Origin: Asterochloris sp. CNOR1
Taxonomy: Eukaryota; Chlorophyta; Trebouxiophyceae; Trebouxiales; Trebouxiaceae
Length of the DNA stretch: 64,000 nt
Reading direction: 5' to 3'
NCBI GenBank assembly: GCA_963969365.1
Contig: OZ017748.1
Span: 1,364,001-1,428,000, forward strand
Below the pieces are notes generated by a model, which was not told the DNA's origin, did no database searches, and saw only the letters and a list, made by a program, of their open reading frames with translations. Numbering within the stretch: position 1 is the stretch's first letter; the number at the start of each line of letters is the position of its first letter. Of this stretch, positions 360 through 45,400 are shown piece after piece. Both the position numbers and the translations under genes were made by a program.

Positions 360-3300
360 GCGCCTGGCTGCACCTCGCTGCCGACCGTGAGGGGGCCCGT
401 GGCCTGAGCAGCCCAGCAGTGCGAGGCGGCACCACTGTAAGGGATGGCCCCAGTGGCTATGAGCTGGTGGAGCCCCAGCGGCAGGTCTCCACCTGCGCTG
501 TCGAAGTGGATGCACCCTGGCGCAGCATTCAGGTGCAGTGGGGCACGCGAACACCGCTGCTCCTGGACGTGCTGTGAGCTAATGTGCTATGACCTGCAGA
601 GACATGGCAGGGCTGCTGCAGGGCAGCCCTGCTCTGCTGTGCCCAGGCCTGGCAAATGCTGCTTTGCCTGATGGGGGCTGATGCTTTGCTTGAGCTCGGC
701 CAGCAGCTGGTGCCTTTCTGTGAGGCATCGTCCACTAGCGGCGCTCAGCTGACAGGCAGTCAGAGAGAAAAGGCTTTGTGCGCATGAAGGCTGCTATCAA
801 GATCCCATTGACATCATCAACTGTTTGTGGGGCTGACGGCTGGATATGGGAACCTGGCTGTGTCTGGCGCATGTTTTGACGCATCTGTCTGGCGCAGGTG
901 CTGACGCCAGATGCCACACAGCTGGCAGACCCCGATTGGCGGCCCCAGCCGTGTGCACTGCCCAGCTCTGCAGCGCAGGGCCGGTGGGAGGACGCAGCGG
1001 CGGCTGCCCGGGAGGGACACATCAATGAGCTGTGCCTGATGACAGTGGATGTGCTGGCAGCTCCTGCTGACGGCAAGGAGAGGTGGGCAGTCTGTTGAAG
1101 GGCATTGCACAGGCACTTCTGCTCACGCTCTTCTCGTGCTAAGGTGCGAGTCCTCCGGTGATCTGTATGCTGGCACGCCCTGCTGACGGCTGACCGGCCC
1201 ACCTGTTCTGAGGGCTGTGCTCTGCTCAGGCCACCACCATGTCACAGCTGTACTTCTGCACTGCAGACAGGTCAGGTCAACAAGGCTGTCCATCGATTAC
1301 TTGTTCACAGGCTGTGCAGCAGATGCTGCTTGTGTGTGATTCAACAGGCGGTCTTGTGCTGGGAGGATAGCCTGCCCTGTTGCGCTGCAGCATGATATGG
1401 GTCCTCTGCTGTGCCTGCAGGGTGCCAGTCACCACAAAGTTGGATCCCATCATCGCCATCACCTGCGTCGCACACAGCTCCGTGGACATCACAGCCAAGC
1501 CTTCTGCAGGTGGTGTTGCCCCAGAGCTGGGGGACATACAGGCCCTAGACAGCCAAGGGGAGGAGGAGGGCATGGACGAGGGGCTGGGCGGCATTTCCCC
1601 GGGTGAGCAAAGAGCAGTGGTCTTTGCCTGCGGCAGCCTGGGGGTGGTTGGCCTGCTGACAGTATATTGCAAGTCTCTGCTGCTCAACTTCATTCATTCA
1701 AAGGGCCTGTGTCAGCAACATGCCTGCGTGTGCCTGTCATGCATTCAACGTTTCAAAGGCCTGGAGAGCAGAGCTGTTTGCTTGTAGTGAGCAGGCAGAC
1801 AGTGGGCTGCAGGTGCAATGCAAACCAGATGCAGGGATCCTGGCTTGGATGCCTGTGCCTCTGGCTCCAAAAGAAGATGTGGCACCCCTTGTTGAAGCCC
1901 AAGCTGCATGTGCATACATCCGCATGTTGGTGACGCTAGCCAGCCACATCAGGCTCGCAAGCACATCCCTTCTTTGCTGAATGTCAGCTGCAAGGCTAAG
2001 CATTGTCTGCCTGACAGTGTTGTTCTTGCCATGCAGGATTGCAGGATGTGTCTGATGCGGCAGCAGGCGGCCATCAGCCAGACACGCGGGACAATGCTGG
2101 AGGCTCTCAGCAGACAAAGATCATGTTTTGCTGGCAGGCTGGCGCTGCAGAGGAGGTGCTGCACGAGAGGGTGACAAGCACTGAAGTGCGCAGGTGAAAT
2201 GAAGCTGCATCAAATGCTGGAATTCAGGAAACAAGTTGGCGTTACTAGCTGCAGTGCTGCCATTGGGCTACGCAGGCAGCCCCTACAGCAGGGCAGCACT
2301 GCATTCATCAGCAGTAGCTGGATTGGGGTGCTCTGGGTTGCTGCAGAACAACCCCTGGAGGTTTCTGCAGTCTCTGCAGCAGTGGCATCATTTCACTGGG
2401 TCTGTCTTGCCAGCCGTTTGCTCATTTCGGCAAGCATCAGCCGAGTATGTCCCGTACAGGTTCGGGACTGAGCAGGCTATGCTGCTGGCGTGGCAGAAGT
2501 GCTTCTTGGAGCTGGACCCTGATGCCATCTACATGTTTGAGGTGCACTCGCACCAGCCCTGCCAGCAGTGCCCAGCTTTTCAGCTCTGTGGTGTGCTGCT
2601 GATGCATCTCTTAGCATACATGTCTAATCGCATAGTAGACCTGCATCATGACTCACTGCTGCACAGGGCCTGCTTGACTTGTGTGACATTCTGCTCAGCA
2701 TGACATCTTGCGCCGAAGCTGGCGTCCTCTCCTGCTCTGCCCTGCATCCCACTCCACTGCAGCCAGAGCTCGCAGAACAATGCTATCTGCAGGTTGAGAC
2801 ACTGCAGTTGCCCCGTCCCACCCCTTTCAAGGCTCTGCCCCACGTTCGTGACATGCCCTGCCCTGCTCCTAGGGTCATGCAGCAACCCTGGTGCCGCTGC
2901 AGATCTGAAGGTTGTCAGGGACCTGTCCACGCCACCTCTCCTGCGCCTGGGCCATGGCCTGTCTTTCTGCTGGACACTTGACAGTCGCTGCTGCAGCTAG
3001 AGCTGCAACGGCGCTGCTGTGCGTTGCAGGTGAAGGACGTCCTGGGGGCCCTCGCCAACCGCTTCAAAGTCCTGCGCCTCGGCGGCGGCGGCCTGTTCCT
3101 CAGCAGGCTAGTGCGAGCAACAGCACGGCCCATAGTGATCCGCAGCGTGGTCAAGTACAGCCAGAACTGGGTGAAAAGCCAGAGCCGCATGGCCTCCAAC
3201 TCCAACCAGGAGACTTTTCGATGTGACAACATGGACGGGCGTGTCGTCTTTGACATCCTGCGGCAGGTCTGTGATCTGAGGCGGATGGTTGTGAGCCCTG

Positions 3301-6300
3301 TCAGCATGCATGACGGGCTGAGCCGCAGAGTTGTGCAGCCTGCCTGCCCTGCGTGGCCACCAACCCTTGACATGTTACGTTGGGCATGTGTGGTTGACAG
3401 GACATGTCCAGCATGCACAGCGTGGATGTGAAGCAGACTCTGGCAGGGCACAGGCCACTTATCATGATGATTGTCGCTGCAGCTGTGCTCATCTGCATCA
3501 GGCTCTGCATCACATTGACCCACATGTGCAGCAACAAACACCCTGCCCGGCGATTGTGCATGATTGCTGGCAACTCTGCTGTCTCACCACCTCATCTGTT
3601 CTGGAACCCTGAGCCGCTGAGCCAGACAGCCCTCATGCTACTGACAGGGCAAGCATGTTTTGATGCTTTCAGGTGCTGAATGGGGTCAATCTGGCCAGCT
3701 TCTCCCTGGTGGACTGTGTGCAAACCCTGCTGGGGCAGCGCCTGGAGGTTCTGCCCTGGCGCCATCTGGCTGAGCTCGCGCAGCTGCATGCCCTGCCGGA
3801 AAGTGACAGCGTGCATGCATCAGGAGCCCTGCAGGTGGGCAGTGCACTCTTGTACCTCTTGTACTCTGCTCTCTGCACTGCGCGGCAACTGAGCCTGCAT
3901 GCTGTCAGGAAGTGACAACAGGCATGCCTCAGGAGTGCTGCTGGCAGCCGTGGGGGCAGCTCTGTCCGGCAGCACTGGCTGCTTCTGGTGTCATGGCAAG
4001 ATGCAGAGCCAGTGCCTCAGCTCTGTGTCTTGTTTAGCAGTGAAGCTGCATTGAGGGGGTTAGAGCATTTGTAAGTCTCCTGTTACCATGTTCAGGCCCC
4101 TCAATGCTCCCCCAGTATGCAGGGCCAAGAGAGCGCTGAAGTGGCTGATGCAGACTGTCGGCACTGCCCTTCAGAGCTGCATTGATGTGTACATTGTCCA
4201 CTGCTGCAGGGCCAGACTGGGTTACATCATCCACTGCTGCAGGGCCAGAGAGAGCCTGCATGAAGCCACAGACTGCCTGGGCACTGGCCCTCATGGCTGC
4301 CTTTGAGATGTGGCCCTTCCCGCTGCAGGGTCAGGCAGGCGCTCACGTGGCAGATGCAGACTGCCTGCGCCTGGCCCGCCACAGTGCAGCCCGTGCCCGC
4401 GTTCTGCGCGCCCTGCTGCAGCGCCTGGCCACCATCCCTGAGACGGTGGAGCTGGCACGGGCCACAGGGCTGACGCTGGGCAACATCCTGTACAACGCGC
4501 AGATGATCCGCACCTGGAGCCTGCTGCTGCGCAATGCACAGCGCCGCGGGTGGGTGGGGGCAAGTCGGCTGCTCTTGGGGGCAGCCCACCCGGGCGGTTG
4601 CATTTGTTGCTTGAGTAGGAGCTTTTGGCATGGGCTGTGAGCCCATCATGGGAAGCACTGCTGGTGGCTGCAGTGTGGCTTTCTGCCCGCAGCTTGGGCA
4701 CTGGCCTGCACAAGCCTTGCTGGTGTGTGTTTGGGAAGGCAGCCTAGGTAGTTGTTGCTAAGCAACCACGCTGCTGTGTTGGGCCTCAACAATCTTCTCT
4801 TTTCTGCCCAACAAGTGGCATCTGGTCAGACCCTTCCTGACCTTGGCCAGGCAGCTGTCCTCAACCCCCAAGCAGCAGCACTGCCTGTCTTGCCATGCAG
4901 GTACATAGTGCCAGGCAGGCAGGAGCCTGTGCAGCTGCAGGAGTCGCCGTACCTGATGCACCCAGTAGAGCTCAACACTGTGGGCCTCTACAGGGAGCCG
5001 GTGGCCGTGCTGGACTTTGCATCGCTGTACCCCTCCCTTTATCGGGCCTACAACCTGTGCTACAGCACCCTCATCCACCCTGAGGATGCAGCCATCATCA
5101 CACAGGATGACACCACTGAGGTGTGCCTGCTGCAACACGTGCTCTGGCTTTGAGGTGCTCAATGCCTCTGTTGTGTGCACTTTGCAGTGCACGCACGGCT
5201 TTGCAGATGGGTCATGAGCACTGCAGCCATCATCGCACATGACTGCAGCCGTGAGGTGGGCCTGGTGGGGCATGTCTCTAAGCTGGTGTGGTGATATTGC
5301 TGCATTGCATGCCAGGCAAGGTGTTCCTGCAGTGTGTGGCCTTGAGTGTGTCGTGCTGCATGCGCACAGGCTGTGCACGCTTGTGGCCCACCATTGGTAA
5401 ATCAGATTTCACATGAGCAGGCGCTGTGGAAGCATGGCAGCATTCCATGCAGCATGCTGCAACCCGCAGGTCCAGCGACCCAAGGCCAATGCCAAGTCCC
5501 TGTTTGTGAAGCCCTCCCTGCGCAAGGGCATCCTGCCATCCATCCTTGGGGCTCTGATTGAGGCGCGCAAGGCCACACGAGCTGCCCTCAAGGTCGCACA
5601 GGAGCCCACCACACGGGCTATCTTGGACTCCCGCCAGAAGGCCCTCAAGCTGACTGCAAGTGAGCTGTGCTCCCGCTGCTGCATCATTATTTGTTTCTCC
5701 CTGAGGGCAACACACAAGCTTCTGCAGGCCTTGCAGCATATGGCAGCGTGCTGCAGTGCTAAGCAGAGGCAGCAACCCTGCAACACAGGGCTGCCTCCCT
5801 CTTCCTGCCATATGAGGCGGCATGGTGCCAAAGCTGCAGGAACTGCCCGCTGTGCTGCTGCAGACGCACTGTATGGCTTCACTGGTGCCCAGGCCTCCAA
5901 CTTGCAGAGCGTGGCGCTGGCAGACTCTTGCCTAGCCTTGGGAGCTAAGGTGGGGCCCTGCACTGAAGCACACAGAACGGTCTCCTCTGCTGGCTGGTTG
6001 AATCTCGCAATACCTTCTGCAGCACCGTGTGTGACTTGTGGCTGGGCATGTCAGCACACGCCCCTTCCTGCCTGCAGTCCACGCACCATGCACGGCAGAA
6101 GCTGGAGGCTGTAGCTGCCTCAGGCGCGCTGGGGCCGGCTGCTGAGGGTGCCAGGGTCATCTATGCACAGGTGAGTGTGGAGATATCCTTACACATATCT
6201 TCCACCAGCTTTTGGCTAAGGATACCAGCGCTACAGTGACACGTTGAACATCAGTGCGCAGTGCCAGGCTGATCTCTTCTGCTTGTTGACACACTTCCTG

Positions 6301-9300
6301 TTAAGAGGTGTGTGCTTTGCCTGAACCATCTCATTTTGCTGTGTTGCAGACGGACTCCCTGTTCGCCCACTTCCCAAATGCCTCTGTGGAGGATGCCATT
6401 GCTGCGGGCAACAGGGCAGGGGAGCTTGTCAGCGAGTCGCTGCCCGACCCGCTGGACCTCAAGTTTGAGCGCGTCTGCTGGCCCTTCATGATGCTGCATG
6501 TGAACAGGTGGGCCGACTGCGCACCTGAAGCATGCTGCATCTGTGTCAGCATGCTAGCCCGCCGGCAGTGACTGATGTTCGCCTTCATTGATCACGGTCG
6601 TCAGCCTGGGTCAGGCGCTCTGTGATGTGCAGCGGTGTTGGCCAGAAATTGCTTTCTCAGGTGCCTGCCGCAAAGTTGTATGGCATGGCTGCATGCAGAG
6701 CACCTGTCCAGCCGTCCTGTGACGTGGGTATTCTGGTTTCATGAGAGTGCCTACACCTCTGCCTGTGAACTGCCGTCATCTTCTGCTGCGTGAGTCGTCT
6801 GCCAGATGCAGCTGCCTCTGTGCAGGTACGCTGGGCGCGGATTTGAGCGCCCAGAGGACCAGAAGGGGCCAGGCACCCTGGTTGTCAAGGGTCTGAAGAG
6901 CATGTGGCGCCAGGCAGCCCCCATTGTGCGCAGCACGCTGCAGGGCTCTCTCAAACGCATCATCATGCAGGCAAGCCTGGCAATTCAGGCAGTGAAGTGC
7001 AGCCAATGAGGCTCTCTGCCCAAAGGGCCTCGCTGTCCTGACTGCCATGCTGGGTTGACCCGCACAGTTCTGAGTGGCATGCTCATGCTGCTGGACCAGG
7101 GAAGGTGATGCTCATGCTGCCCTTGTAGCTTGTGTGGTGTACAACTTCAGGTGGGCAGCAGACAGCTGCAGGTAAGCAGGCGCTGCATCTTCATGATATT
7201 GCGGCACCACTGTCAATGCACGGGCTTCTGGACAAGCTCCTCTGACCATTATGTCAGCACTGGCACCGCTCCACTGAGGCCATGCTTCTCTTTGTTGGCT
7301 GCAGAACGACGTTTCCTCAGCGATTAGTTTTGTGGAGGGGGAGGTGCGGCGCCTGCTGTCAGGGCATGTGGAGTCGTGGGAGACTGTGATGACAGGTGAG
7401 GGGTTGAACATGCTCTGCAGTTCACTTCATGCCGGTGTCCTGACCTTGTCAACCTGAGTCACAGACACCTGAGTCCAGTAACCCGCCACATTCCCCTGCA
7501 GGGCAGGCCAGCAAGCACTCACACACAAGCAAGGAGCGCTGCATGTTAGGGGGTCAGCACTGCCTACTGAGTCAAAATGCCGCTGCCACAGTGCAGATTA
7601 TACTGGTGCCCGAGCCATCAGGGAGGCTCAGCCGAAAGCCCTGACCTTGTCAACCTGAGTCCAGACACCATTCAGGGCTTTCGGCTGAGCCTCCCTGATG
7701 GCTCGGGCACCAGTATAATCTGCACTGTGGCAGCGGCATTTTGACTCAGTAGGCAGTGCTGACCCCCTAACATGCAGCGCTCCTTGCTTGTGTGTGAGTG
7801 CTTGCTGGCCTGCCCTGCAGGGGAATGTGGCGGGTTACTGGGTAGTCCTTTGCAGCTGCTGAGGCTGATGAGTGTGCTGCAACATCACTGTTGGCTGGGC
7901 TGCAGGGTGCTGCCGGCAGGTCATGGGTAGCGATCTGCAGGCATGGTAGCTGCCGGCATGCCTGAGTATTGGTTCTGTTGGCATGCCTGCAGGTGGCCTG
8001 TGGCGGGTGACGGGGCAGCAGATCGCAGGGGTGGCAGCTGCTGAGGCTGAGGCTGATGAAGATGCCCCTCCAGCCCCTACCCCTGGCAAGGCAGGTGCCA
8101 AGGGAGTCAGCAAGGGGACCGGTAAGGGGGCTGATGCCAACCCGCCTGAGGATGTGAGGGGGCCTCATGCCTCCCTGGCAGTGCGCCTGACGGTGAGTGC
8201 TGCTCATGCAGCAGGTCTGCCTGCAGGGCTGTGCCCACAAGGGTCGCAGGCCGACAGCAAGCTGAGCAGAACACATGGAGTATCAGAGCCACGGCAATGC
8301 GCTGACACGTATAGAAAGGACAGCAGGGGCATGGAGGCTGCACGTGAGGGAGGCATCAGCAATGCTGAGCAATCATTTCAGACAAATTGCAGCACGCCTG
8401 GAGCTGGCATGTCTCATTGGGTCAGGATGCCGCTGCAAGCCTTGCAGCAGCAGCACACCCAGACAAAGTCGCTGTGCCTGTAGACACGCGACCCTGGGCG
8501 GGCATTTGTGCTGGGGGAGCGCCTCAACTATGTGCTCCTCCCCGGGCAGCGCACTCAGGACGATGCAGCTGAGGACCCCCTGACGGCAGTGAAGGCGCTG
8601 GCCCAGCCCGACTATGAGTTGTACTGGAAGAACAAGCTGCAGCGCCCACTGAAGGAGATGTTTGCCGTCTGCGTCAGCCCCACGCAGCTGAATTCTCTGC
8701 TACAAGGTGAGCGGCCTGAGGTGGCTGGGAGCTATGCTTTGCTGCGGAAGTATGACGCAGCTGACAACCAGTTGGCGGGTGGGCAGCTGCCTTGCAGCAG
8801 GTGGGCGCTGTTCAGAGCGGGCCTTGAAACGCTCCAGCATATCGGGTCTGTCTGTGCTGCAGCTGTCTCAGGTGCCTTGTGCACGCACAGCTGCTCTTCG
8901 CATGAAAAGCCTGCTGGTCTCAAGTTCCAGCTTGCTCAACCGCTGTGCGCTGTGTCTCTCAGCATGCAGCTCTGAGGTGGTGTCATGTTGTTGCAGGGAT
9001 GCACACCAGTGTGCATGTGGACCTGAGCACTGCTCCAGCTGCTGCCAACTGCAGCGAGGTCAACAAGCGCAAGGGAAAGCGCCAGCTGGGGATGCAGGCC
9101 TTCTACAAGAGCACGCTGCGCTGCCTGGGGTGCCGGCGCTCCATGCCAGGCAGCCGGCAGCCAGGGATGCCTGCAGATGTAGAAGGGCCAGGTGGGTGCT
9201 TGGGGATGTGCTCCCTCCATGCTGCCTGCTGCTCTGGGGCAGCCTGTCTGCTGTAGGTGTTGCTTTGCACACTGTGCCCCACAGACACGGCTGGGGGATT

Positions 9301-9769
9301 GCATCCACGCACAGGGTAGCCCACTGAGCGGATTTGCCAGGAGGCGGCCGCGGCCTGATGTGCCCCTTGCTGCCTGACTTCTGTGTCCCGGCCACTTTGC
9401 CATGACTAAGCCATTGCTGCACAGCAGCTGTACGCTGCTGCAGGGCTGCACAAGGCTTGCGCAGCCAGCCCTGACAGCTACCTGCAGCGAATTGAGCTGA
9501 GCCTGCTGTTGTTGCATGCAGGGCTGTGCGAGGCCTGTGCAGCCATCCCCGACAAGCTGCCGGAGGTCTACTTGGAGTTCCAGAAGCATGTTAACGAATT
9601 TGAGACCCACCGGGCCCAAGCGCTGAGCTACTGCGCCAGGTGCCACAGCGGAGGCCTTGGCCAGCCAGTGGTCTGTGAGAATGGGGAGTGCCCTGTCCTG
9701 TATGCCCGCATTGAATCTGCAGCACGCCTGAGCACAGTGAGCCAGTCGCTCGCCAGGCTAGACTGGTAA
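360..9769 (+). CDS. DNA polymerase delta-like B-family protein, predicted inactive (5' partial)
   Basis: Seen: exons at 360-532, 898-1082, 1421-1602, ~2459-2541, 3030-3266, 3673-3834, 4329-4549, 4901-5120, 5470-5659, 5864-5949, 6078-6170, 6350-6507, 6826-6970, 7305-7395, 7993-8192, 8484-8706, 8997-9191 and 9522-9769. From 3030 onward every junction keeps phase; the ~2459 acceptor does not fit the preceding phase. About 1030 residues are visible, near POLD1 length. Palm motif A reads [18 protein letters not shown], motif [20 protein letters not shown], and motif C YAQTDS instead of YGDTDS. The exonuclease I position reads TVDVL (family FDIE), the exoII FD pair is absent, and the exoIII aspartate is absent. 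The KKRY and KGIE-RRD positions read VNRY and KGLKSMWRQ. The C-terminus keeps both cysteine pairs of CysA (CLGC, CEAC) and CysB (CARC, C-x4-C), which in Pol delta bind zinc, an Fe-S cluster and the B-subunit. GFTGAQ and the C-terminus favour delta over zeta (REV3). Inference: a structural or regulatory paralogue without polymerase or proofreading activity. Confidence 0.88.
3905..3947 (+). repeat. Exon-edge echo, polymerase exon ending at 3834
   Basis: This intronic stretch is a diverged copy of 3795-3840, the last ~40 bases of the upstream exon plus its donor. Shared words include GGAAAGTGACA / GGAAGTGACA and CATCAGGAG / CTCAGGAG. It lies about 110 bp downstream of the original. Confidence 0.6.
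5217..5262 (+). repeat. Exon-edge echo, polymerase exon ending at 5120
   Basis: Diverged copy of 5083-5130, the end of the motif A exon and its donor. Both carry GCAGCCATCATC-CACA, then a GAGGTG splice-site-like word followed by GCCTG. The copy is about 137 bp downstream and encodes a degraded version of the same peptide end. Confidence 0.7.
7475..7841. repeat. Perfect 170-bp inverted repeat with 27-bp loop
   Basis: Left arm 7475-7644 and right arm 7672-7841 are reverse complements with no mismatch found by reading; the loop is 7645-7671. The repeat lies inside the intron 7396-7992 of the polymerase gene, so the pre-mRNA could fold into a 170-bp duplex. The loop repeats the sequence just left of the left arm (7441-7470, beginning TGACCTTGTCAACCTGAGT). 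No terminal repeats or transposase were seen, so it does not look like a typical transposon. Template switching, a recent inverted duplication or an assembly chimera are all possible. Confidence 0.92.
7811..7875 (+). repeat. Exon-edge echo overlapping the right arm of the inverted repeat
   Basis: This stretch resembles the acceptor and start of the next exon (7984-8060). Both run CCTGC..GCAGG, then TGTGGCGGGT-AC-GGG, then GCAGCTGCTGAGGCTGATGA. The copy begins about 174 bp upstream of the original. It continues beyond the palindrome end at 7841, so the exon copy probably existed before the inverted duplication. Confidence 0.6.
9435..9486 (+). repeat. Exon-edge echo, last polymerase exon
   Basis: Diverged copy of the acceptor and first ~40 bases of the final exon (9514-9560). 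Both read GCAGGGCTG, then a CAAGGC/CGAGGC word, then GCAGCCA, then CC-GACA. It lies about 80 bp upstream. The copy would encode a degraded version of the CysA peptide [11 protein letters not shown]. Confidence 0.75.
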
Positions 9770-33497: not shown

Positions 33498-36400
33498 ATG
33501 GCAGCAGCAGCGCCTATTGCTCTCAAGGAGAGCTTGCAGGTAAGTGCATGCAGCATCAGAGCATCTCTGCGTTCTCACCATAAGCTCAGGGTGTGATGCA
33601 ATGAGGAGCTCTCCCCCATGCCTTGGGCTGGATCTGGTCCGGCCTCAGCAGACCACGGCAGTCGCCTCCTTGAAGGCACGATGGCTGCTGGGTCGCACAG
33701 CAGGACTCGGCTCGGTCCCCAGCCCATTACGATGGCAAGAGGGGGGGCCTGGCCTATGACCCACCTCAGGCCAATGTTAATGCTGGCATGATGCCAGAGG
33801 AGGCACCTGAAGACGCTAGCTGAGCTGCGCAAGGCCCTCAGAGCGGCTTTGGGCAGGCCACACGGGAGCGCTCCCAGGCAGCCTAGGCTTTAAGCACAAT
33901 TTTCAGTGCTGCTGCGCCTGTGCCCTGCAGCTCACCAGCATCGGGATTCAGCCCCAGCACATCTCGTTCACCAATGTCACGATGGAGAGCGACAAGTTTG
34001 TTTGCATCCGGGAGACAGGGGCGGCCAACAGGTGGGGCACCACCTCTGCATTTGCTGTGCAGCAAATCAGCAGCAGTCCTCACTTATCCCTGGGTTAGCC
34101 CCAGGCAGAAGCGCAGCGGCTCAGCCAAAGACTCAGCTGCTCATCAGGCAAACTACTGTCCTGCAGTGTGTTTGCAGTTAGCCCAAAATTCTGCTTCAGC
34201 TTTGCTGCGCGGCAGCACTCGTTCTCCAGCACTTGTGTATGATCTTGGCGGCTGCAAGATGCCACCAGTCAACAAGGCTGTGAGCCATTTTTGCTGCATA
34301 CTGCCAAATTTCTCATCAATGCTGCCCTCTGCGCGAGCCATGCTGCTGCATCCAAATACATGTTGTGAACATAGCTGTCTGTCATGCTACAGCGTGGTCA
34401 TTGTGGACATGGCCTCACCCATGACTCCCATGAAGAGGCCCATCACCGCGGACTCTGCGTTGATGAACCCTGTCAGCAAGGTCATTGCCCTCAAGGCTGG
34501 GGTGGCAGGTGCCGTAGGCGACAATCTGCAGGTGTGTAGGGCTGCCTGCAGAGGCACCAGGCAGTGTGCACTAAGATTCGGTGCTGGGTGCGCCAGATGG
34601 GAGTTGTGGGCAGCATCTTTGATCGCTGAAGGGCTTGAGATCTTCACGATGCAAAGCTTCTGGCATGTTGCCGTGCTGCAACACCTCTGTCATTAGCTTC
34701 CCTGCCTGCGGCACCTGTGCCCATATGAGCACTGCGTCTCAGCCACACATCGGCTGCTATGCTGCAGCAGTTCCCTGACAAGCCAGCCTGCCTGCAGATC
34801 TTCAACCTGGAGATGAAGAGCAAGATGAAGTCATTCCAGATCCAGCAGCCTGTGGTGTTTTGGAAGTGGATCAGTCCCAGCAAGTTAGGCCTGGTCACCG
34901 CCAGCAGTGTTTACCACTGGGACATGAACGTGAGGGCTGCAGCTCTCGCTTCCTACCGGCACCAGGCAGCATGTGCAGCATGCATGACCGCTGCAAGCTG
35001 TACTGCATGAGAGGTGGTCATTGCCCATCCACAGCCCAAAGCAGCTGGGCTGTGGCAGCAGCAGGCTGGTAGCGACCTAACAGGAAGTGCTGCACTGCTG
35101 ATGGAATCGTTTCTGCTTCAACACAAGCCTCTTGTGCCAGCACCAAGCTGGTTCTGCCTGCACGTTGGATGCCTGCGCTCCCCAGAGCAATCAGGCTTAA
35201 GGTCTGTCGTCCCCATCAAGTTTGTACTGCAATGCTGCAAATCAGTGTCTACCATCATAGTGGAGAGTCCCAGACAAGGTGCACAGTATTGCAGCAGCCA
35301 GAGCAACATTGCAAACGACGTCCTCCTGCTGCTGAGGAGCCCACTGCTGGCTGCTGCAGGGCACATCAGACCCTGAGAAGGTGTTTGACAGAACGGCTAA
35401 CCTGGAGAACACCCAGATCATCAATTATAGGGTGGACACTGCTGAGAAGTGGTGTGTCCTAGTCGGCATTGCGCCTGGCGCCCCGGAAAGGTGCGACTAT
35501 ACTGTCTAATTGGTGGAGCATGCCTGGATGGTACTGGGCTCGATGCACATGTTGTTGGCTAGTGCTCCCTGATGCACGGCGGTGCTGCCTGCACATGCTA
35601 CATGGCTGAGGCTGGAACATGGCTGCGCTCCCAGCCCATGCTGCATGAGTCCTGCTGGTGCCTTGGTGTACGCACCAGCAATTGAAGGCTAGCAATCTCA
35701 TCCGAGGGCTGGGGGCCCATGGGCTGCTGCTGGCTGTTTCATGCAGCTGCCAGTCGCCAGGCGTGCAGGTCCTGCAAGGCTCTGCTCACATCTGATGATC
35801 TGCACACCTCTCCTGCAGACCGGCATCTGGTGGGGTGTTGAAGTTTGACGCTGAATGGTGTCCTGTCCTGCAGGCCTGCTCTGGTGAAGGGTTTCATGCA
35901 GCTGTACTCTGTGGACCAGAAGCGAAGCCAGGCCCTGGAGGCGCATGCAGCAGCCTTCTCGACCATCAAGGTGTGCTGCCTGCACACCATAAATGTCCAC
36001 TGAGCCAGCACCAGCTGGCTAAGTTTGCCTTAAGAGCTGCAAGCCAGGCCCATGTTTGGGGCTCTACTGCCTGCATGTGCGCATAAGTATGGAGGCCTCT
36101 TGAAGGCTTGTGGTGCTGCAGAAGGGCGGACTTGCCAGCACTGTGATCAGCTTCGCCCAGAAGACGTACGCGAACGGCGTGCTGACGTCCAAGCTGCACG
36201 TGATTGAGCTGGGCGCCCAAGCAGGTATCTGCAAGGGAATGCACCCAGACAACCATTCAGAGGCCGCCAAGTCTAATGTACAGATGCTTGTGCCTTCGCG
36301 GACTGCTGCGTCAGCCTGTCCAACTCCAGCAGCCTATCAATTGACTCCTCGCCCTTCCTGGTAGCTGCAGCATTGCTGATGCCCTCAGCCTGCACTGGCT

Positions 36401-39400
36401 GCTCCCTGGCACTTGTTGTCTCGGCCCTTGTGCCAGCGCTGTGTATTGCCAGCCAGCTGCTTTTGGTATGCACTCCTCCACACGCTCCCCCAAGCCCTGC
36501 CCTCTGCCCTGCAGGCCAGCCGCCGCTCAAGCGCCAGGCAGAGCTTTTTTTCCCCCAGGAGTTTGCAGATGACTTCCCAGTAGCCATGCAGATAAGCGAC
36601 AAGTATGGGCTGGTGTACGTGATCACCAAACTGGGCTTGCTGTTTGTCTACGACCTGGAGACCGCGACAGCGGTGTACCGCAACAGGATCAGCCCAGACC
36701 CCATCTTTCTCACTGCCAATGCGCCGGAATCTGGGGGCTTTTACAGCATCAACAGGTGGGCAGACAGGCAGAGCTCTTGCAGCCCCACAGACTGCAGCAT
36801 GCTGTGCTGTCTGCGGCAGCGCGAGCAGTCCTGCACGATGTGCCTGCTTTGCTGCACGCTGCCTGCAGCGGCCGTGGCACTGCTGTGGACTGCTCAGCTT
36901 CTGCAGCACGCTCCCAGCAGCATCCTGCATGAGATACTCTGTTGTGGGCTGCAGCAGCACTGGCAATGTGGTGTCCTGCATGGTCATGGCTGCCAACAAA
37001 CATCCTGCTTGCTGGATTGCCATCGCACTGTGCTACCTGCAGCTGCGTGGCAGGACAGCATGGCAGGGCGCGGTGGCCCCTTGCAGGGCACCTTTTTGTA
37101 TCCCCAACGCCTGTCAACAAGTTGAGAGGGCTGCTGTTGCAGGCGGGGGCAAGTGATGTTGGCCACAGTGAATGAGCAGACGATGGTGCCCTTCGTCAGC
37201 CAGCAGCTGAACAATCTGGAGCTTGCGCTTGCACTGGCCAAGAGGGGAAACCTGCCAGGGGCAGAGGCCCTGGTCGGGCAAAACTTTGACCGCCTGTTCA
37301 GCATGGGCCAGTTCAAGGAGGCGGCTGAGGCTGCTGCAGAGTCCCCACAGGTGGGCAGGGTGCACATGTGCAGGAGTCTTTGTCTATGCAGTGGGGCAGC
37401 TGCGGAGCATTTCTGCGGCAGGACATCAACAAGAGTTGCAGCCTGGCCTGTGACCCTGCAGAAGGCAGCGGGAATGTTCTGGCTTTGAGGCCCCACTGTT
37501 GGTGTTGCTGGCCAGCCAAACTTCATGTGGTGACCTTACCTGTGACCCCAGCAGTGATCTGGTACTAGCCGTGTGCATTCTGGGAGCCTGCACTGCTTCT
37601 GGCACCCCTGCTGTCCAAGCTTGTGAGGCACACCTGTGTTTGGACTGCATCTGCTGAGAAATCTATTGGTGCCCCCTGGGCTGGGTTGCCCCATGCAATT
37701 AAGACATTGCAGAGGGCGCTTAGGAGCCATCAGCTGTGTCATCAAGAAGATTTGCTGCTGAGCAGAAGGAATGGGTGTTGTGCTGGGCAGGAGCAGTCCT
37801 CTATTGGGCAAGGCTGAGCTTTGCTGGGAGCTCTTAGGAACCAGTAGACGTTTGAGTTTGCTGAGTAGGGCTCTTTGCTGACTGGCACTAGGTTCAGCTA
37901 TCATGCCCTCCTGCAGGGGGCTCTGCGGACTCGGGAGACAATCGAGAAGTTCAAGCGTGTGCCTCCCCAGCCAGGGCAGACCTCCCCCCTGCTGGTGTAC
38001 TTTGGGACGCTGCTGACCAAGGGCAAGCTCAATGCTTACGAAAGTGTGGAGCTTAGCCAGCTGGTCATCAGCCAAAACAAGAAGCACCTGCTGGATGCTT
38101 GGTTCAAGGTGGGACCCAGGCAGTCATCCTGTTTGTGGGAAGCGCGCTGGTCATTGCGTCTGATGCCTGGCTGTAGTGTGGCCAGGCTGTGAGCGCCACG
38201 TGGATTTCAGAGGGAGAAGCCCGCAAGGCGCACAGATCTGTGGCGTAGCCTAATGATGGAGCCCCACAGCACTTTGCCAACACAGACCTGCTGTGAGCAC
38301 GTCTCATGCTCTGCCTGGCAGTTGGCTGGGAGAGCCATTGGAATCTGGAGTGACTGATTGTGCTTGGGTAGTGGTGTGGGCTTGACTCTGCCGGCACGCC
38401 TGGCTGTTTAAGGTGGTCAGCACCTTTGCGCCATGTGCAGCTACCTAATGCCATGGTTCACACATGTGCTGTGTCACACTGCAGGAGGGCAAGTTGGAGC
38501 CCAGCGAGCAGCTCGGAGACCTTCTCAAGCAAAGCGGGGACGCTGATGCAGCACTTTCCTGCTACAGATCTGCAGGGGCCACCACCAAGGTCATTGAGGG
38601 TAAGACGCTGGTACCCTGCATGCTGATGCAGTCATGCGCGCAGGACGGCTGGCTTGCGGGCATGGTCTGGCATCACCAGGGGTCTCTGGCTCAGACAACA
38701 GAGTGAAAGCTAGGCGGGTCCAGCAGACGCCTGTGGCACCTGCATTGTTGCATACATGTGGCTCCCATGAGGGCCTTCTGCAGTGAGGTAGGAGAGGCGC
38801 TGGGTGGTCTGTGTTGAGCTGCCTGACTTGACTGATGCTGCTCCTGTTCAATCCACTGAGCAGCTACTGTGCTCTCTGCATGGCAACTGCATTCACTTCC
38901 TGCAGGCTTGGCTGGAAAGGGGGACTTCCAGGAGCTCATGCGCTTCAGCGGACAGGCAGGCTACAAGCCCGACTACCTGTACCTGATGCAGCGCCTGATG
39001 ATGGACAACCCAGAGGCTGCCGTGAATTTGGCCAAGATGATTGCCAAGCAGCCAGGGCCGCCCATCGACCTCAACACCCTGGCCGACCTGTTCCTGCAGC
39101 GCAATGCTGTCAGGGAGGCCACTGCCTTCCTGCTGGATGTGCTGCAGGAGAACAAGCCGGAGCATGACAAGCTGCAGACGAAGGTGGGCTGTGCAACAGC
39201 AACATGCCGCGGGCCAACGCGGGCAGTGCACTGCTTCCACATGGGAGGGTCTCAAGCCCCATTCTGCAGTCCAGCTGAGCTCTGTCGAAGCTCCTGTCTG
39301 AGCATGACAAGTTGTGTAGCAAGTGTGGGCTGGGGGCTGGTGGCACATTGGAGAGACCTAGGGCTGCCTGCTGCAGTCTTGCAGGAGAGTCAGCCTAAAA

Positions 39401-42400
39401 TTGAGAATCTGCAGAACAAAGGGGCACTGCTGCATGCAGCCGCAGTGTGCCACTCCGTGCATACTCCCGCCAGGGTGCCGCATTGCCGCTCAGCTAATGT
39501 GGTCAACTTGAGCAAGAGCTTGAGCTGCTGCACCCTGCTCCAGCATGCAATTGCAGCCCAGCTTCCCTTCCCTCTGGGACAGGCAGCCCCTGATTGCTGT
39601 ACCTTCAAGCGTGGCATGCCTGCCTGCAGCTGCTGGAGATCAACCTGGTCACCAACCCCCAGGTGGCAGACGCCATTCTGGCAAATGGCACGCTGACCTA
39701 CTATGACCGGCCCCGCATTGCACAGGTGGGTACCAAATGCATAGAACTTTGTCCTGCCTATCTGCCTGATGGAATGAATGCTTTGCTCCCCATGCACCCA
39801 GTGAGGCTTTTGACTGTCTGCCCCTTCTGATCTGCTGCACCTGGTGCAGACCTGCTAGCTTCGCACCTCTGCAGCAAAGGTGCTGTCGCAGGCTCCTCGG
39901 CACCTCTAATTGGCCACATGGGTTGCCTGTTAGATTTTCATGAATGCAACATGTCCTCAGCCTCACCCCAGCATGGCTGTCCTCAAGGCTGCCCTGACAC
40001 TATTGTCACTGCCACCTGCAGCTGTGCGAGAAGGCTGGGCTGTACATGCGCGCCCTGCAGCACTACACGGATCTGGTGGACATCAAGCGTGTCATTGTGA
40101 ACACGCATGCCATCGATCCCCAGGCGTTGACGGAGTTCTTTGGCTCGCTCAGCGCTGAGTGGGCCCTGGACTGCCTGAAGGTGCGTGGTATATGCTGCTG
40201 CTCTCTTCACCAGAGAAGTTGCGGGGTGTATGCTTTTGCTATCTTCACCATGGACAGGCAGAGACTGCCTGAAGCAGCAAGGTCTGTGCTGCCAAGCAGC
40301 TTGTCTCAGCACACGGAGGTGTTGTTGGCAAGCCCGATGCCTAGGTCGTGCAAAGTCGCGCCTGCAGGGCGTGCACCCGCCTGTCAGTAAGGTGCCTCAG
40401 CTAACGCCACGTGCTGCATAGGGCTGCCGCGTCACCTATGGCCTGCTGTTCCAAGTGAGGGAGCTGTCGGCAACGGTTGCTGGCCCGCCCACCTTGCACC
40501 CCTCCTCACAACATCTCCCTGCCTGCAGGAGCTGCTGACTAGCAACATGCAGCAGAACCTGCAGCTCGTGGTGCAAGTGGCCAAAGAGTACACCGAGCAG
40601 CTGGGGGCTGGCAAGATCATTGAGCTCCTGGAGGGCCACAAGAGCTACCACGGGCTTTACTACTACCTGGGCTCCTACATTGCCTTCTCTGAGGACCCTG
40701 AGGTGCACTACAAGTGAGTAGGCCCATCAGGGAACACTGGGATGAGGGCTGGTCTGATTCACAAGAGCAACAAGTTGCCAGTGCTGATGGACTGGGCAGC
40801 ACAAGCACGCCGGGCAGAGCTTATCTGTTCAAGTGAATTTTCAGGTGTGCACCAGGAGTATTGTTGGGTGAACTGACATCGATGTTGTCACAGGGACACA
40901 TAATTGAAGGCACCTACAGCGCTGCCCTGCCTGATCGTGCTGCAGGTCAGTGGGTCTTCACATGAAGGCTCATCATGTTGTTTGCTGCCTGAAGGTACAT
41001 TGAGGCTGCCAGCAAGACGGGACAGCTGAAGGAGGTGGAGCGTGTCACACGGGAAAGCAACTTCTATCCGGCGGAGCGCACCAAGCAGTTCCTCATGGAG
41101 AGCAAGCTGCCTGATGCCAGGTGGGATCCTGTACAACCTCTCAACCTCTGAGCCCGCAGCATGCATCGCGCAGCCTGTGACGGCCAGCAAGCTGCCTGAC
41201 GCCAGGTCAAGGTGGAAAACAGGCTGCCAGCCCTGGGTCGGTGCTTGACAGAAAGCAGACTCTGATGCCGGATTTGGCACCCTGAGACCCACCAGGCTCC
41301 TTATCTAGTTGTATTACTGGTTCTAATGTCAGATAAGCCAAGGTGTGCCTCGGTTATGACCTGTGAGCTGCCCAGGATGCCTGCAAGCTGTCATGTATGA
41401 TGTGCTGCTGCATGCCTTGGCTAGAGTTTCCACTCTGCCTGCAGGCCACTGATCAATGTGTGCGACCGCTATGACATGGTTGGCGACCTGACCCACTACC
41501 TGTACACCAACAACATGCTGCGGTACATTGAGGGCTATGTGCAGAAGGTCAACCCTGCCAAGGCTCCTCAGGTACACCGCACAGAGCTGTCAAATGCAGA
41601 CTGCTGTGCAGGCTATTGAGAGCTGTAGCTGCAGCCGGGCAGGCACCTCTGCAGAGTACTTGTTTGAAGCAGTGCCCGTTGAGAGCAAGCTTTGCCAAGG
41701 CTGTGATCTTACAGGCATGTGCCTTGTGATCAAGCTCTTGACACCTGCTCAGCGGAGGACTTGCAGCTCAAGTTCCAAAGGGCTGGTCGTCACCTGTCAG
41801 CCTTGGACTGCCTGCAGGTGGTGGGTGCGCTGCTGGATGCTGAGGCTGCAGACGAGTTTGTGAACAACCTCATCCTCAGCGTGCGCAGCCTGATCCCTGT
41901 GGAGCAGCTGTGCGCAGAGGTGGAGAAGCGAAACAGGTGGGCCAGCGAGGTTGTGGGCTGCTGCGCTGAAGCACGGCTGTGCGCAGAGGGGCAGGATCAA
42001 GTTTGCACCCGCTCACTGTGCTTGATGCAAGTGTGGGTGAAGCGGCACGACATGTCCGGCAGCAAGCTACCAGGTCAGGATCAGTCTCTCTCAAGGCACA
42101 TTGTGGCTGGCAGACAGCACGTGCTGGCCATGCCCTTGGCACAGCAGGGCTGCCTGTGTAGGCCAAGTGGGGTCTTGAGGGGCGCTCACAGGTGGCTTGG
42201 AACAGGTCTCCTCATAGATCCTTTGAGGCCTGCTTTGTGGGTTGGGCACCCGCAGCCGCTTGCATTGAGGCACGAAGGGAGCCAAAGACTGAGCTGCACA
42301 GGTTAAGGTGCACATGCGCGTTCAGGAAATGCCAAGACATGCTCCATGCCGCTCAAGTTGCAGGCTGAATGAAGCTGCTGAACCACTTGTGGGACACATG

Positions 42401-45400
42401 CCGCTTCAGAGCATTTGGCACAGGCATGCAGCTGAAGCTGCCGAACCTCTGTAGGAATGCAATGCCGTGTGTGCTATCCAGCCTCATGTGAGCTCTCGCC
42501 TGCTTCCCACTCCTGCAGGTTGAAGCTGCTCAATCCCTTCCTGGAGCACCTGGTCAGCGAGGGCAGCCACGATCCCCATGTGCACAATGCCCTGGGCAAG
42601 ATCATCATTGACAGTAACAACAACCCTGAGCACTTCCTCACCACCAACCCCTACTATGACTCGCTGGTCGTGGGCAAGTACTGCGAGAAGCGGGACCCCA
42701 ACCTGGCCTGCGTGGCCTACAAGCGGGGTAGCTGCGACGATGCACTGGTGGATTGCACCAACAGGCACAGGTGGGTGCAGTTGCCAGTCTGCAGCACCAC
42801 AGGCCTTTGCGCATGGGTGCTGTGGTGCCAGGCACAGCTGGGTGTGAGGGGCCACCTGCAAGTCCCAGAGGCATGCATGGTGTCGTAGATACACTGGCAG
42901 GCAAAGGTGGGGGACAAGTGGATGCAGTCCCGTGGCATGCACTGGCCTCAGCTGCCAACCTGCATGGCCAATTTTCACTGCTCAGTCTGAAGTGGCACCT
43001 CCATGCTCCTATTACCCACATTGCCTCTTCCTTCCTGCAGTTTGTTCAAGGTGCAGGCTCGTTACATTGCTGAGCGCATGGACTCTGACCTGTGGACCAA
43101 GGTGCTGGACGAGAACAACCAGTTCAGGCGGCAGCTTATTGACCAGGCACGCTGCAGTGGTGGTCTCCAGTGTGTGCTTTGTGTTCACTAAACAAGTCAT
43201 TTGGCAGGCTTTGTCTGCTGTACGCGTTTTTTGTTTGTCACAAGCCTGACACGCTTTCTCACATCGGGGCCTTTCAACGGTCTGCTCTCAGGGCCTGGGG
43301 CTGAGAGCAAGCTGAGCTGCCACTTGCCTATGCTAATGCCCTGCTCCTTGCCTGGTGCATATGAATTACAGGGCACAGCCAGCAAGCAGTAATGACAAGT
43401 TGCATGCCAGCTCTTTCAAATGTTGTCAAATGGTCATTGTCAATAGATCAAGGCCCTTTTATCTGCCCACCCTGCAGGTGGTGTCCACAGCGCTGCCAGA
43501 GAGCAGGAACCCGGAGCAGGTGTCAGTGGCGGTGAAGTCGTTCATGGGCGCAGGGCTGCAGGCTGAGCTCATCGAGCTGCTGGAGAAGATTGTTCTCCAG
43601 AACAGCTCCTTCAGCAACAACCACAACCTGCAGAACCTGTTGATCATCACTGCCATCAAGGTGGTGCTGCTGCAGGGGCATTGCAAGCCTGCTGTGCTTG
43701 CCACGTGCAGATGCAGACGTGACTCGCTCCTGCCAGACCCGTAGGCCGGCACCTTCTTTCCCAAGCTGGTGCAGTGCCGGGCACACACACTTGCTTTGTT
43801 GCAGTGCTTCCCACCTGGGTGCCTGCTGATTGCCCAGCCTTAATATGCTTCGCAGCTCTGAAAATCATCAGGCCCTGCTGCTTAACTCACCTCCCCAGCT
43901 AAGGATGAGACGCACCCAAGCCCCATAGCTTGCATCCTCTGAGCTAGGCTTTCCCTGCACCTACTGCACTCAACGCATGATTGTCTGGCGCCTCTGAGGT
44001 GTCCCTGCTTGCCGCGCTGCAGGCAGACAAGAGCCGTGTGAAGGATTACATCAACCGCCTCGACAACTTCGACGGCCCAGCTGTGGGAGAAATTGCTGTT
44101 GGGTATGAGATGTACGAGGAGGCATTTGAGATCTACAAGAAGTTCGGGCTTAAGGCACAGGCCATCAAGGTCCTGCTGGACCACATGGAGGACCTCAACA
44201 GAGCGTTTGAGTACGCCTCCAAGGTGAGAAGGCTGTGTGTTGCAGGTGAACAGAGATGTGTCAGTGTCTGCTCATGTGTGTGACATGGGTCCAACAAGGT
44301 GCTGGAGCCTGCCTCCAGACTGTAATTATTGTGCTGCAGCTGTGCTGACATGCAGGAGCATTGTTCACAATCTGATTGGCAGGGCAACATGTCAAGTACA
44401 GCGCGCCACGCCTGGTTGGTGTCATTCTGCATCTTTGCCTAACCAGGCACGGCTACTGCATGCTGTGCCATCTGCAGGGCTCTGCTTCTGGGAGGGTGCC
44501 CATCCAAAATGTTAGCAGGCCTTGGCTGAGATCGGATGCATGCTGAGCTGCTGCTGCAGGTGGATGAGCCCTCGGTGTGGTCAGAGCTGGGGCATGCCCA
44601 GCTTGAGGCAGGCCTGGTTGGCGAGGCGATTGCGTCCTACCTGCGCAGCAATGATAGCAGCCGTCACGTGGATGTGGTGGAGCGGTGCAAGGAGGTGAGA
44701 TGGAGCTTTGGCCTGCTGGCAGTTGTCAATGGAAGTGCACCTGAATGACTTCCCTTGGCTGTGAACTGCAAGGCACAGTACTATTCTGACCGCCCCGGAG
44801 CACATCAAGTGGTGCTACAAACCTGTGCAGCAAAGCTCCTGTGGTGGCATTGGAGAAGGAAAGTGTTGTCACTGGTGTCTGTGCTGATGGCATGGCTCCT
44901 CTGCTCTCATTGCAGAAGCTCCAGGCTGCTTCCTGCTCTCAAGTCCGGCCAAACCTATAGAGCTCCGCAAAACATGGGAGCTCAAAGATCTGATCCTTGA
45001 GGGGCTGGTCAACCACCTGTTGATGGCTTGTGATGCACCTTAAAGTGCCAATGCCTCACATGTCACCTCCCAAGTGGCGCTGCAGGCTGGGTCATACGAG
45101 GAGCTTGTCAAGTACCTGCTGATGGTGCGCAAGAAGCACAAGGACAGCAAGGTGGACACAGAGCTGGTGTATGCCTACGGGAAGACCAAGCAGCTGGGCC
45201 CACTGGAGGAGTTCATCTCATCCCCCCACCAGGCCAACCTGCAGGTCAGTCAGACAGATCCATGGAGCTTCTGGGCATGGGGGCAAGCAGGCCAATGTGC
45301 TTGTGCAGCAGGCAGGTGGGGTGAGGGAGAATCAGCTACCCGCAGTGTTCATTTTGGCCACCTAGTCGTACCATTGCTTGAATGACGCCTGAGGGGCCTG

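Follow-up and report, generated by a model that had tools for sequence, protein, structure and literature searches.

The window, the whole 64,000-nucleotide stretch of DNA analysed here, contains a gene for a divergent B-family DNA polymerase with a Pol delta-type architecture, a predicted dead exonuclease and an altered motif C. We tentatively favour a model in which this gene codes for a PCNA-tethered polymerase without proofreading over one in which the product is a pseudo-polymerase. The protein may thus be a special-purpose enzyme rather than a dead one.

The gene is real. Its spliced frame stays open and in phase on the forward strand from position 360 as far as the stop codon (9767-9769), comprising 19 exons, 18 introns and 1081 open codons (1081 aa). 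Seventeen of the introns are GT-AG and one, after exon 14, is GC-AG. The GC3 of the gene is 74%, compared with an intron GC of 58%, and is of the coding type. A chance open frame is excluded because 1081 random codons would be expected to hold about 19 stops given the positional composition of the gene, or about 37 given that of the introns. The gene seems to start upstream of the window and to lack its 5' end here. An earlier note on this DNA had described eighteen exons; the open, in-phase frame stands, and the exon count is one higher. Table 1 lists the features of the gene. An 18-residue stretch within exons 1-4 aligns weakly (~1 bit) to yeast Pol3, and the low-complexity insert in the thumb spans 54 residues, compared with 9 in L081 and 8 in L082.

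Table 1. Features of the polymerase gene in the window (residue numbers are those of the equivalent Pol delta positions).
Feature	Position	Strand	Basis
Exons 1-4: pre-exonuclease region and first part of degenerate exonuclease domain	360-532, 898-1082, 1421-1602, 2037-2193	+	gene model
Remnant of exo I, TVDVL (FDIE-type in its canonical form): D321 (Asp) retained, E323 to Leu	1042..1056	+	alignment
Exo II remnant across exons 5/6: Asn replaced, Asp D407 an alignment gap	2515..3065	+	alignment
Exo III remnant HSAARARVL: catalytic Asp (D520) to Arg	4380..4406	+	alignment
Palm motif A DFASLYPS: D608 (metal-binding Asp) and Y613 (steric-gate Tyr) unchanged	5013..5036	+	alignment
Fingers: residue-674 equivalent intact	5560..5589	+	alignment
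Motif B across exons 10/11: K701, N705 and Y708 equivalents intact	5632..5877	+	alignment
Motif C YAQ/TDS, split by intron 6171-6349: first Asp D762 to Gln, second D764 intact	6162..6358	+	alignment, splice enumeration
KFERV: E802 equivalent intact	6461..6475	+	alignment
KKRY box to VNRY(AG), split between exons 13 and 14: Arg-Tyr kept without either lysine	6500..6835	+	alignment, splice enumeration
KGLKSMWRQ in place of KGLxxVRRD: second minor-groove sensor pair changed (R839 to Trp, D841 to Gln)	6887..6913	+	alignment
Exons 16-17: thumb with low-complexity insert	7993..8706	+	gene model, alignment
QLGMQAFY, fits consensus PCNA box Qxxhxxaa	9083..9106	+	alignment
CysA cluster CxxC...CxxC, across exons 18/19	9122..9538	+	zf-C4pol 1.8e-10, alignment
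CysB cluster CxxC...CxxxxC	9632..9691	+	profile match, alignment
Stop codon TAA	9767..9769	+	gene model

Judged by its sequence, the protein belongs to the Pol delta/zeta clade of eukaryotes and has a delta-type architecture. It matches the B-family polymerase domain (PF00136, 2.1e-74) and the C4 Zn-finger (PF14260, 1.8e-10), both above the curated cut-offs. Its best PDB match is human POLD1 (1e-74), with yeast Rev3 at 2.4e-35, and it keeps 78 of the 114 columns that are invariant in delta and zeta. The analysis supports the earlier description of a Pol delta-type protein with docking clusters, much conserved sequence and a dead exonuclease. Over the polymerase domain, the window protein is 35% identical to human POLD1, compared with 63% for yeast. 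The eukaryotic delta/zeta clade that includes the window protein has support of 100/99 in a tree built without any PolB2 row.

Should the protein instead be REV3, the catalytic subunit of the host's Pol zeta, or branch deeply on the zeta side, loss of the exonuclease would be ordinary and only motif C and the KKRY box would be unusual. The polymerase-domain tree pairs the window protein with yeast Rev3 (92/84, both on long branches), and the AU test does not reject a clade uniting it with zeta (p 0.348). Of 75 columns in which delta and zeta differ, 20 show the delta state in the window protein and 17 the zeta state, a count that leaves its delta identity less than firm. Against a REV3 identity, region scores favour delta in the exonuclease (7-16 bits for delta rows, 0-2 for Rev3 rows), in the thumb (27-40 against -1.4 for Rev3, yeast Rev3 not being among the rows) and in the C-terminal domain (22-36 against 4-14). 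REV3 is not the best match along the length and draws level only in the palm after motif B, where the scores do not separate (45-62 bits for delta, 50-54 for Rev3). The single residue that zeta has inserted after motif B (SA-x-FSGRM) is absent, as in the delta and archaeal rows that were compared with two REV3 rows. The thumb sequence PHAxLAxR...EDPL and the Phe-to-Cys spacing are delta-type, diagnostic residues are matched at 42 of 149 delta and 24 of 128 zeta positions, and a tree from a longer alignment groups the window protein with L082 and delta (79/91). The regional scores, the indel, the longer-alignment tree and the diagnostic residues make a REV3 identity quite improbable.

The C-terminal region appears suited to docking. 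QLGMQAFY sits where human p125 and yeast Pol3 carry a non-consensus PIP, and a seven-residue step leads from its Phe to the first CysA cysteine, as in both of those proteins; this register was read directly from the alignment. CysA and CysB each have four cysteines, and both clusters are intact, as the earlier note had reported. In Pol delta, CysB serves 4Fe-4S binding and B-subunit docking (excerpt of PMC7720213). By sequence, the predicted protein has the Pol delta arrangement, in which a PCNA-binding motif lies just upstream of CysA and is followed by CysB.

Proofreading residues are lost at three of four positions. The active 3'-5' exonuclease set of Pol delta, D321, E323, D407 and the exo III Asp D520, reads D, L, gap and R in the window protein, which bears out the earlier observation that the exo I Glu, the exo II Asp and the exo III Asp are gone. 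No single-intron splice alternative restored exo II among 1372 enumerated combinations or exo III among 180. We conclude from these residues that the exonuclease is, by prediction, dead.

The palm is altered at a single one of its three conserved aspartates. D762 is replaced, and D608 and D764 are kept, as is E802 (yeast numbering). In the yeast Pol delta-PCNA-DNA structure, the Mg ions are coordinated by D608 and D764 out of D608, D762 and D764 (excerpt of PMC7720213). This contradicts the earlier statement that both DTD aspartates hold catalytic metals, since D762 is not a metal ligand in the yeast enzyme as that excerpt describes it. The broader claim that catalytic and proofreading carboxylates had been replaced holds for three of the four proofreading residues and is not confirmed for the catalytic ones, so that it overstates the loss. 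The same note had correctly read conserved motifs A and B (D608, Y613, K701, N705 and Y708 equivalents), a motif C of YAQTDS split at 6170/6350 and the loss of the KKRY lysines; where Pol delta has YGDTDS and KKRY, the window protein reads YAQTDS and VNRY. Pairing donors in 6081-6359 with acceptors in 6100-6419 gave 462 single-intron combinations, none with [GASC]DTD; of 19,779 combinations with one micro-exon (up to ~90 bases), none had an open YxDTDS in which x is G, A or S. No restoring form of KKRY was found among 989 single-intron combinations. A single sequencing error is an unlikely cause of YAQ, because GCACAG, read directly, is at least three base changes from any GGNGAY.

The replaced residues correspond to minor-groove sensor positions. 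In Pfu polymerase, whose motif C spans residues 539-544, the first Asp of that motif (Asp541) holds K593 in its minor-groove orientation, and D615 positions R613 (excerpt of PMC3733885); we checked the numbering of Asp541/K593 and the register of R613/D615 against the sequence. Asp541 salt-bridges the second KKRY lysine, and the window protein lacks both partners. All eight dNTP- and metal-binding positions tested are kept, including the seven that are invariant in delta and zeta (hypergeometric 0.064), and none of five minor-groove positions is (0.0026, for a set assembled after the losses were noticed). As far as the alignment can tell, the losses are concentrated in one network, with the D762-K814 and R839-D841 pairs both shed.

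Archaeal PolB2 shows a similar pattern. Among 30 PolB2-type loci, 26 were readable and 4 were unread; these are related sequences and not independent events. All 22 readable HxxxD loci lack a Lys before RY/KY, often reading NRY as the window protein does, while all four YGD[TV]DS (DxD) loci retain both the motif C Asp and the Lys. In losing both the first motif C Asp and the Lys before RY, the window protein matches the 22 HxxxD loci. Archaeal PolB2 was earlier called inactivated on the same argument (excerpt of PMC2527604), and it is an active, exonuclease-free extender (PMC8764526). Loss of catalysis in the window protein is not established by that argument.

By analogy, this nuclear gene would code for a catalytic subunit of the Pol delta type that has diverged and functions in the manner of archaeal PolB2. 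Once expressed and folded, the protein would use its consensus PIP box to hold on to PCNA and CysA/CysB to dock a POLD2-type B-subunit, and its metal- and dNTP-binding residues would support polymerisation. Without the two salt-bridged pairs by which B-family replicases inspect the minor groove behind the primer terminus, it would be expected to extend distorted or mismatched ends unchecked. The host would presumably also have a separate canonical POLD1. Pol zeta, the known eukaryotic extender, retains YGDTDS, KKRY and RRD, which counts against an extender role.

The earlier note had instead proposed that catalysis was lost and that the protein is a non-catalytic competitor or scaffold occupying PCNA and POLD2/POLD3-type subunits. 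We regard this as possible, if doubtful, and as a serious rival because, at the KOD residues that correspond to D762, K813 and K814 (D540, K591 and K592), nearly all substitutions were inactive in PCR (excerpt of PMC5568139), a result that also speaks against extension. KOD R606 variants discriminated mismatches more strongly in the same excerpt, so loss of a DNA contact need not promote mismatch extension. A scaffold would agree with the dead exonuclease, the retained docking clusters and the consensus PIP box, and it has a precedent in the inactivated C-terminal half of Pol epsilon. In that half, however, both domains have disrupted catalytic motifs apart from DIE (excerpt of PMC2669801), and a scaffold would not need the full set of metal and dNTP residues kept here, although the hypergeometric value for the invariant seven makes this a weak point. 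PolB2 refuted the same inference. It is very improbable that the gene is a decaying POLD1 duplicate without present function: the low identity to human POLD1 and the long branch fit decay, but the open codons, in-phase exons, coding-type GC3, kept invariant columns and concentration of losses in one network do not.

We compared the favoured PCNA-tethered polymerase with another exonuclease-dead Pol delta-type protein, encoded by L082 on a contaminant-like pond contig (JAIYDP010000272.1). Both lack the exo I-III residues and have a gap at the exo II Asp, and they cluster in one of two trees (85/95). L082 differs in its intact YGDTDS, KKRY and RRE, its single reading frame and its non-consensus PIP. 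The two could belong to a so far unnoticed lineage of eukaryotic polymerases that resemble Pol delta but have no exonuclease; its window member would then have converged on the PolB2 active site by losing both minor-groove sensor salt bridges and become a PCNA-tethered extender beside Pol zeta. We consider this unlikely, and it is weakened because the polymerase-domain tree places L082 with delta and the window protein apart (98/91). Peptide patterns and tblastn found no close relatives of the window polymerase domain in GTDB contigs or IMG/VR; IMG/VR yielded none of L082 either. A Pol delta Zn-finger sweep of 387 genomes of the phylum in which G002 is filed, aimed at further contaminants of eukaryotic origin, matched G002 alone, below the cut-off. 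No such eukaryotic protein was found in the titles and abstract openings of the open PMC literature, a scope that leaves subscription papers mostly outside.

A Pol delta-type subunit without proofreading or a primer-end check would, if the favoured model is true, be a new polymerase of the translesion type, potentially sharing subunits with Pol delta; the alternative would make it a natural competitor of Pol delta. The paired loss in the window protein and the PolB2-type loci suggests a rule for 'inactivated' B-family polymerases, namely that the Asp/Lys pair may vanish together in enzymes that still work.

The window protein resembles POLD1/Pol3 in domain order, best match, CysA and CysB, PCNA-box position and metal and dNTP residues, and differs in its dead exonuclease, YAQTDS, VNRY, WRQ for RRD, consensus PIP box and reduced identity. 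With REV3 it shares the delta/zeta clade, replaced exonuclease residues and, as a functional analogy, the extender role, but REV3 has YGDTDS, KKRY, RRD and the insertion after motif B, and its thumb barely matches. Like the C-terminal half of Pol epsilon, it is a B-family module without proofreading that adjoins a metal-cluster domain; that half is fused to an active polymerase and, as defined in the excerpt of PMC2669801, has both its exonuclease and polymerase motifs disrupted, whereas the window gene stands alone with motifs A and B intact. PolB2 (Dpo2) belongs to a separate archaeal and bacterial group in which HxxxD is found and motif B is degenerate (15 loci aligned), and CysA/CysB, both present in the window protein, are not visible in PolB2 locus L170. 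The window protein reads YAQTD, lies in the eukaryotic delta/zeta clade and keeps the motif C Tyr; PolB2 has a His at this place, which has been proposed to compensate, and the difference counts against the PolB2-like model. In how it may work, it is nonetheless comparable to PolB2: both have lost the exonuclease, the first motif C Asp and the Lys before RY, and both keep the second Asp.

The window holds the 3' part of an intron-rich plus-strand polymerase gene, and its 5' end is taken to lie outside the window because exon 1 of the model (360-532) begins mid-codon. The gene model contains 19 exons, rather than the eighteen counted in the earlier note, and 18 introns (17 GT-AG and one GC-AG). 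It encodes 1081 amino acids plus a stop with no internal stops; 1081 random codons would contain about 19 stops at the gene's positional composition and about 37 at that of the introns. GC3 is 74%, versus an intron GC of 57.6%. The GC-AG intron lies at 6971-7304 (CAG/GCAAGC). Intron 15 carries a 22-bp direct repeat and a perfect 170-bp inverted repeat (7475-7644 and 7672-7841, 27-bp spacer), which could mark a palindrome of recent origin, the remains of a mobile element or an error of assembly. A Pfam scan of 10 neighbouring frames gave four clathrin matches and one DEAD_2 match, and the other five had no match. A frame near the DEAD_2 frame may resemble RTEL1.

Positions of neighbouring genes and of Pol delta-type loci on database contigs
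Feature	Location	Strand	Remarks
Clathrin heavy chain-like gene, parts	window ~36277-50443	+	clathrin or propeller repeats, 4/10 frames scanned
DEAD_2 helicase frame	window 62941-63426	-	Pfam 7.9e-26
L082, 1140-aa single-frame Pol delta-type protein	JAIYDP010000272.1, 1420-4842	+	pond MAG filed as Verrucomicrobiaceae
L081, canonical eukaryotic POLD1, two overlapping frames	NYXK01000071.1, 1858-4856	+	65% identity to human, best segment

The unusual polymerase described in the earlier note is real, but to say that its catalytic carboxylates are replaced, as that note does, goes too far. In yeast Pol delta on PCNA, three conserved acids are reported, of which D608 and D764 coordinate the two Mg ions and D762 is the remaining one (PMC7720213); the window protein keeps both ligands, and only D762 of these three palm acids is changed. 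Among the exonuclease residues, D321 is kept, E323L and D520R are substituted and D407 is missing. We scored 30 palm columns in which the remaining 17 rows of the alignment do not vary, tolerating a single gap. The window protein has lost five (R732A, D762Q, K813V, K814N and R839W, yeast numbering), and D841Q is a further loss when judged against five delta/zeta rows. Applied to the other 17 rows, this leave-one-out scoring gave no losses in seven, one in four, two in three, three in one and four in two, the last being L082 and a REV3 row. D608, Y613, R674, K701, N705, Y708, D764 and E802 are intact, and we take Y613, R674, K701, N705, Y708 and E802 to be metal or dNTP residues. Seven of these eight do not vary among the five delta/zeta rows, and all seven are kept (hypergeometric 0.064; 78/114 kept overall).

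None of five minor-groove residues is kept (hypergeometric 0.0026, a descriptive value, as the set was chosen after the losses were known). A published account of Pfu polymerase places K593, the second lysine of the KKRY box (VNRY in the window protein), at the primer terminus within the minor groove, where a salt bridge to Asp541 orients it; R613, which D615 holds, also reads the minor groove, and a tyrosine is named as a third reader (PMC3733885). Motif C spans residues 539-544 in that source, which makes Asp541 its first aspartate, and we checked the Pfu register on PDB 2jgu. Both partners of both pairs are jointly lost from the window protein, and the tyrosine, presumably that of motif B, would still be present.

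Pfam matches to the window protein were DNA_pol_B (2.1e-74), zf-C4pol (1.8e-10) and the exonuclease domain (3.5e-5), and PDB matches included human POLD1 (1e-74), yeast Pol3 (1.9e-65) and yeast Rev3 (2.4e-35). Its polymerase domain is 35% identical to that of human POLD1, versus 63% between yeast and human. Regional scores (bits, delta versus Rev3 rows) were 7-16 versus 0-2 for the exo region, 111-137 versus 73-86 for palm and fingers, 45-62 versus 50-54 for the palm past motif B, 27-40 versus -1.4 for the thumb (yeast Rev3 unlisted) and 22-36 versus 4-14 for the CTD; such scores tilt toward delta, since delta evolves more slowly than zeta. The zeta-type insertion past motif B is not present in the aligned window protein. 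Diagnostic residues are delta-type at 42/149 and zeta-type at 24/128 positions, and at 75 columns fixed differently in delta and zeta the window protein matches delta in 20 and zeta in 17, and L082 does so in 30 and 8. Both trees place the window protein firmly in the eukaryotic delta/zeta clade (100/99 each). The 39-row polymerase-domain tree joins two long branches, the window protein and yeast Rev3 (92/84), and puts L082 with delta (98/91); window and L082 pair in 0/200 of its bootstrap trees. An 18-row tree from a longer alignment pairs the two (85/95) and places both with delta (79/91), and window plus zeta was not rejected on that alignment (AU p 0.348). From these scores, the indel, the diagnostic residues and the disagreeing trees, we class the protein as delta-type by architecture, with a position inside the clade that differs between the two trees.

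L082 has also lost its exonuclease residues (D321A, E323Y, D407 missing, D520A), and its YGDTDS and KKRY motifs are intact. It looks like eukaryotic contamination in the MAG, because it is Pol delta-type with both Cys clusters (C4 match weak, 22.2 bits versus a cut-off of 28.9) and its neighbour carries a fungal-type Zn(2)-Cys(6) domain. L081, on a contig assigned to Deltaproteobacteria, appears to be a contaminant as well. L082 and the window protein have 41 otherwise private residues in common, versus 10-30 for the window protein with any other of five rows. Common descent is a possibility, with both on long branches and the two trees in disagreement. If they form one lineage, the loss of proofreading would have come first, while the polymerase still worked, and the window member would have shed its minor-groove network afterward.

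CysA and CysB are both complete in the window protein. Human p125 and yeast Pol3 are reported to bind PCNA through the non-consensus motifs GLLAFA and GGLMSFI directly before CysA (PMC7048817, PMC7720213, PMC7189476). In our alignment, the window protein has QLGMQAFY in the same place and at the same distance from CysA, a step of seven residues. This motif fits the strict consensus Qxxhxxaa, which was found at that site in 0/4 other delta-type rows (human, yeast, L081, L082). We infer that the window protein would bind PCNA.

We compared these losses with PolB2 (Dpo2), a separate prokaryotic B-family group. With the PolB2-type protein L170 of a Sulfolobales genome as seed, we searched 151 genomes and fetched the best 30 loci (L172-L201), of which 26 were readable by the patterns used and four were not read. 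HxxxD occurs in 22/26, with Lys before RY or KY in 0/22 (N, M, Q or G stands there); NRY is common among them, as in the VNRY of the window protein. The other four have YGD[TV]DS, and all keep the lysine. The first motif C aspartate and this lysine are jointly lost or jointly kept in 22 and 4 of the 26 readable loci; the 22 are related and so are not independent losses, and the four were counted by pattern and are PolB2-type by search. Under a permissive pattern, 152 of 160 other B-family loci combine Asp with Lys or Arg before RY/KY; four, all viral, have Asp without either, three have no box within reach, and in one the Asp position is masked. The viral scan seed contained motif C, and the bias-free part is the 80 GTDB loci only (best 80 of 147), with Asp in 79 and masked in one.

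The earlier note's reading of the window protein as a pseudo-polymerase is possible, although it was built on a wrong premise, that both DTD aspartates hold catalytic metals; the Mg ligands are D608 and D764, and both are kept. In its favor, almost all substitutions at KOD D540, K591, K592, T541 and G607 are reported to give a PCR-inactive enzyme, and R606 variants to give higher mismatch discrimination (PMC5568139). The T541 and G607 equivalents are kept in the window protein. KOD D540, K591 and K592 were matched to D762, K813 and K814 through the one-residue offset from Pfu seen in the register check, on entries taken to be KOD. PolB2 differs from the window protein in having His where the latter has Tyr, which also favors inactivity. 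Because of the KOD results and this His/Tyr difference, we hold only tentatively to the better supported reading of this one genomic sequence, a Pol delta-type polymerase that resembles PolB2, has lost proofreading and may be active, and consider a pseudo-polymerase somewhat less probable. For the PolB2-like reading the known family offers a precedent. PolB2 was earlier described as apparently inactivated (PMC2527604), yet Sulfolobus Dpo2 is reported as an active extender polymerase without exonuclease (PMC8764526), and according to a 2025 study the first Asp of DxD is missing from most PolB2 members, which misled earlier predictions, and some retain DxD (PMC11791011).
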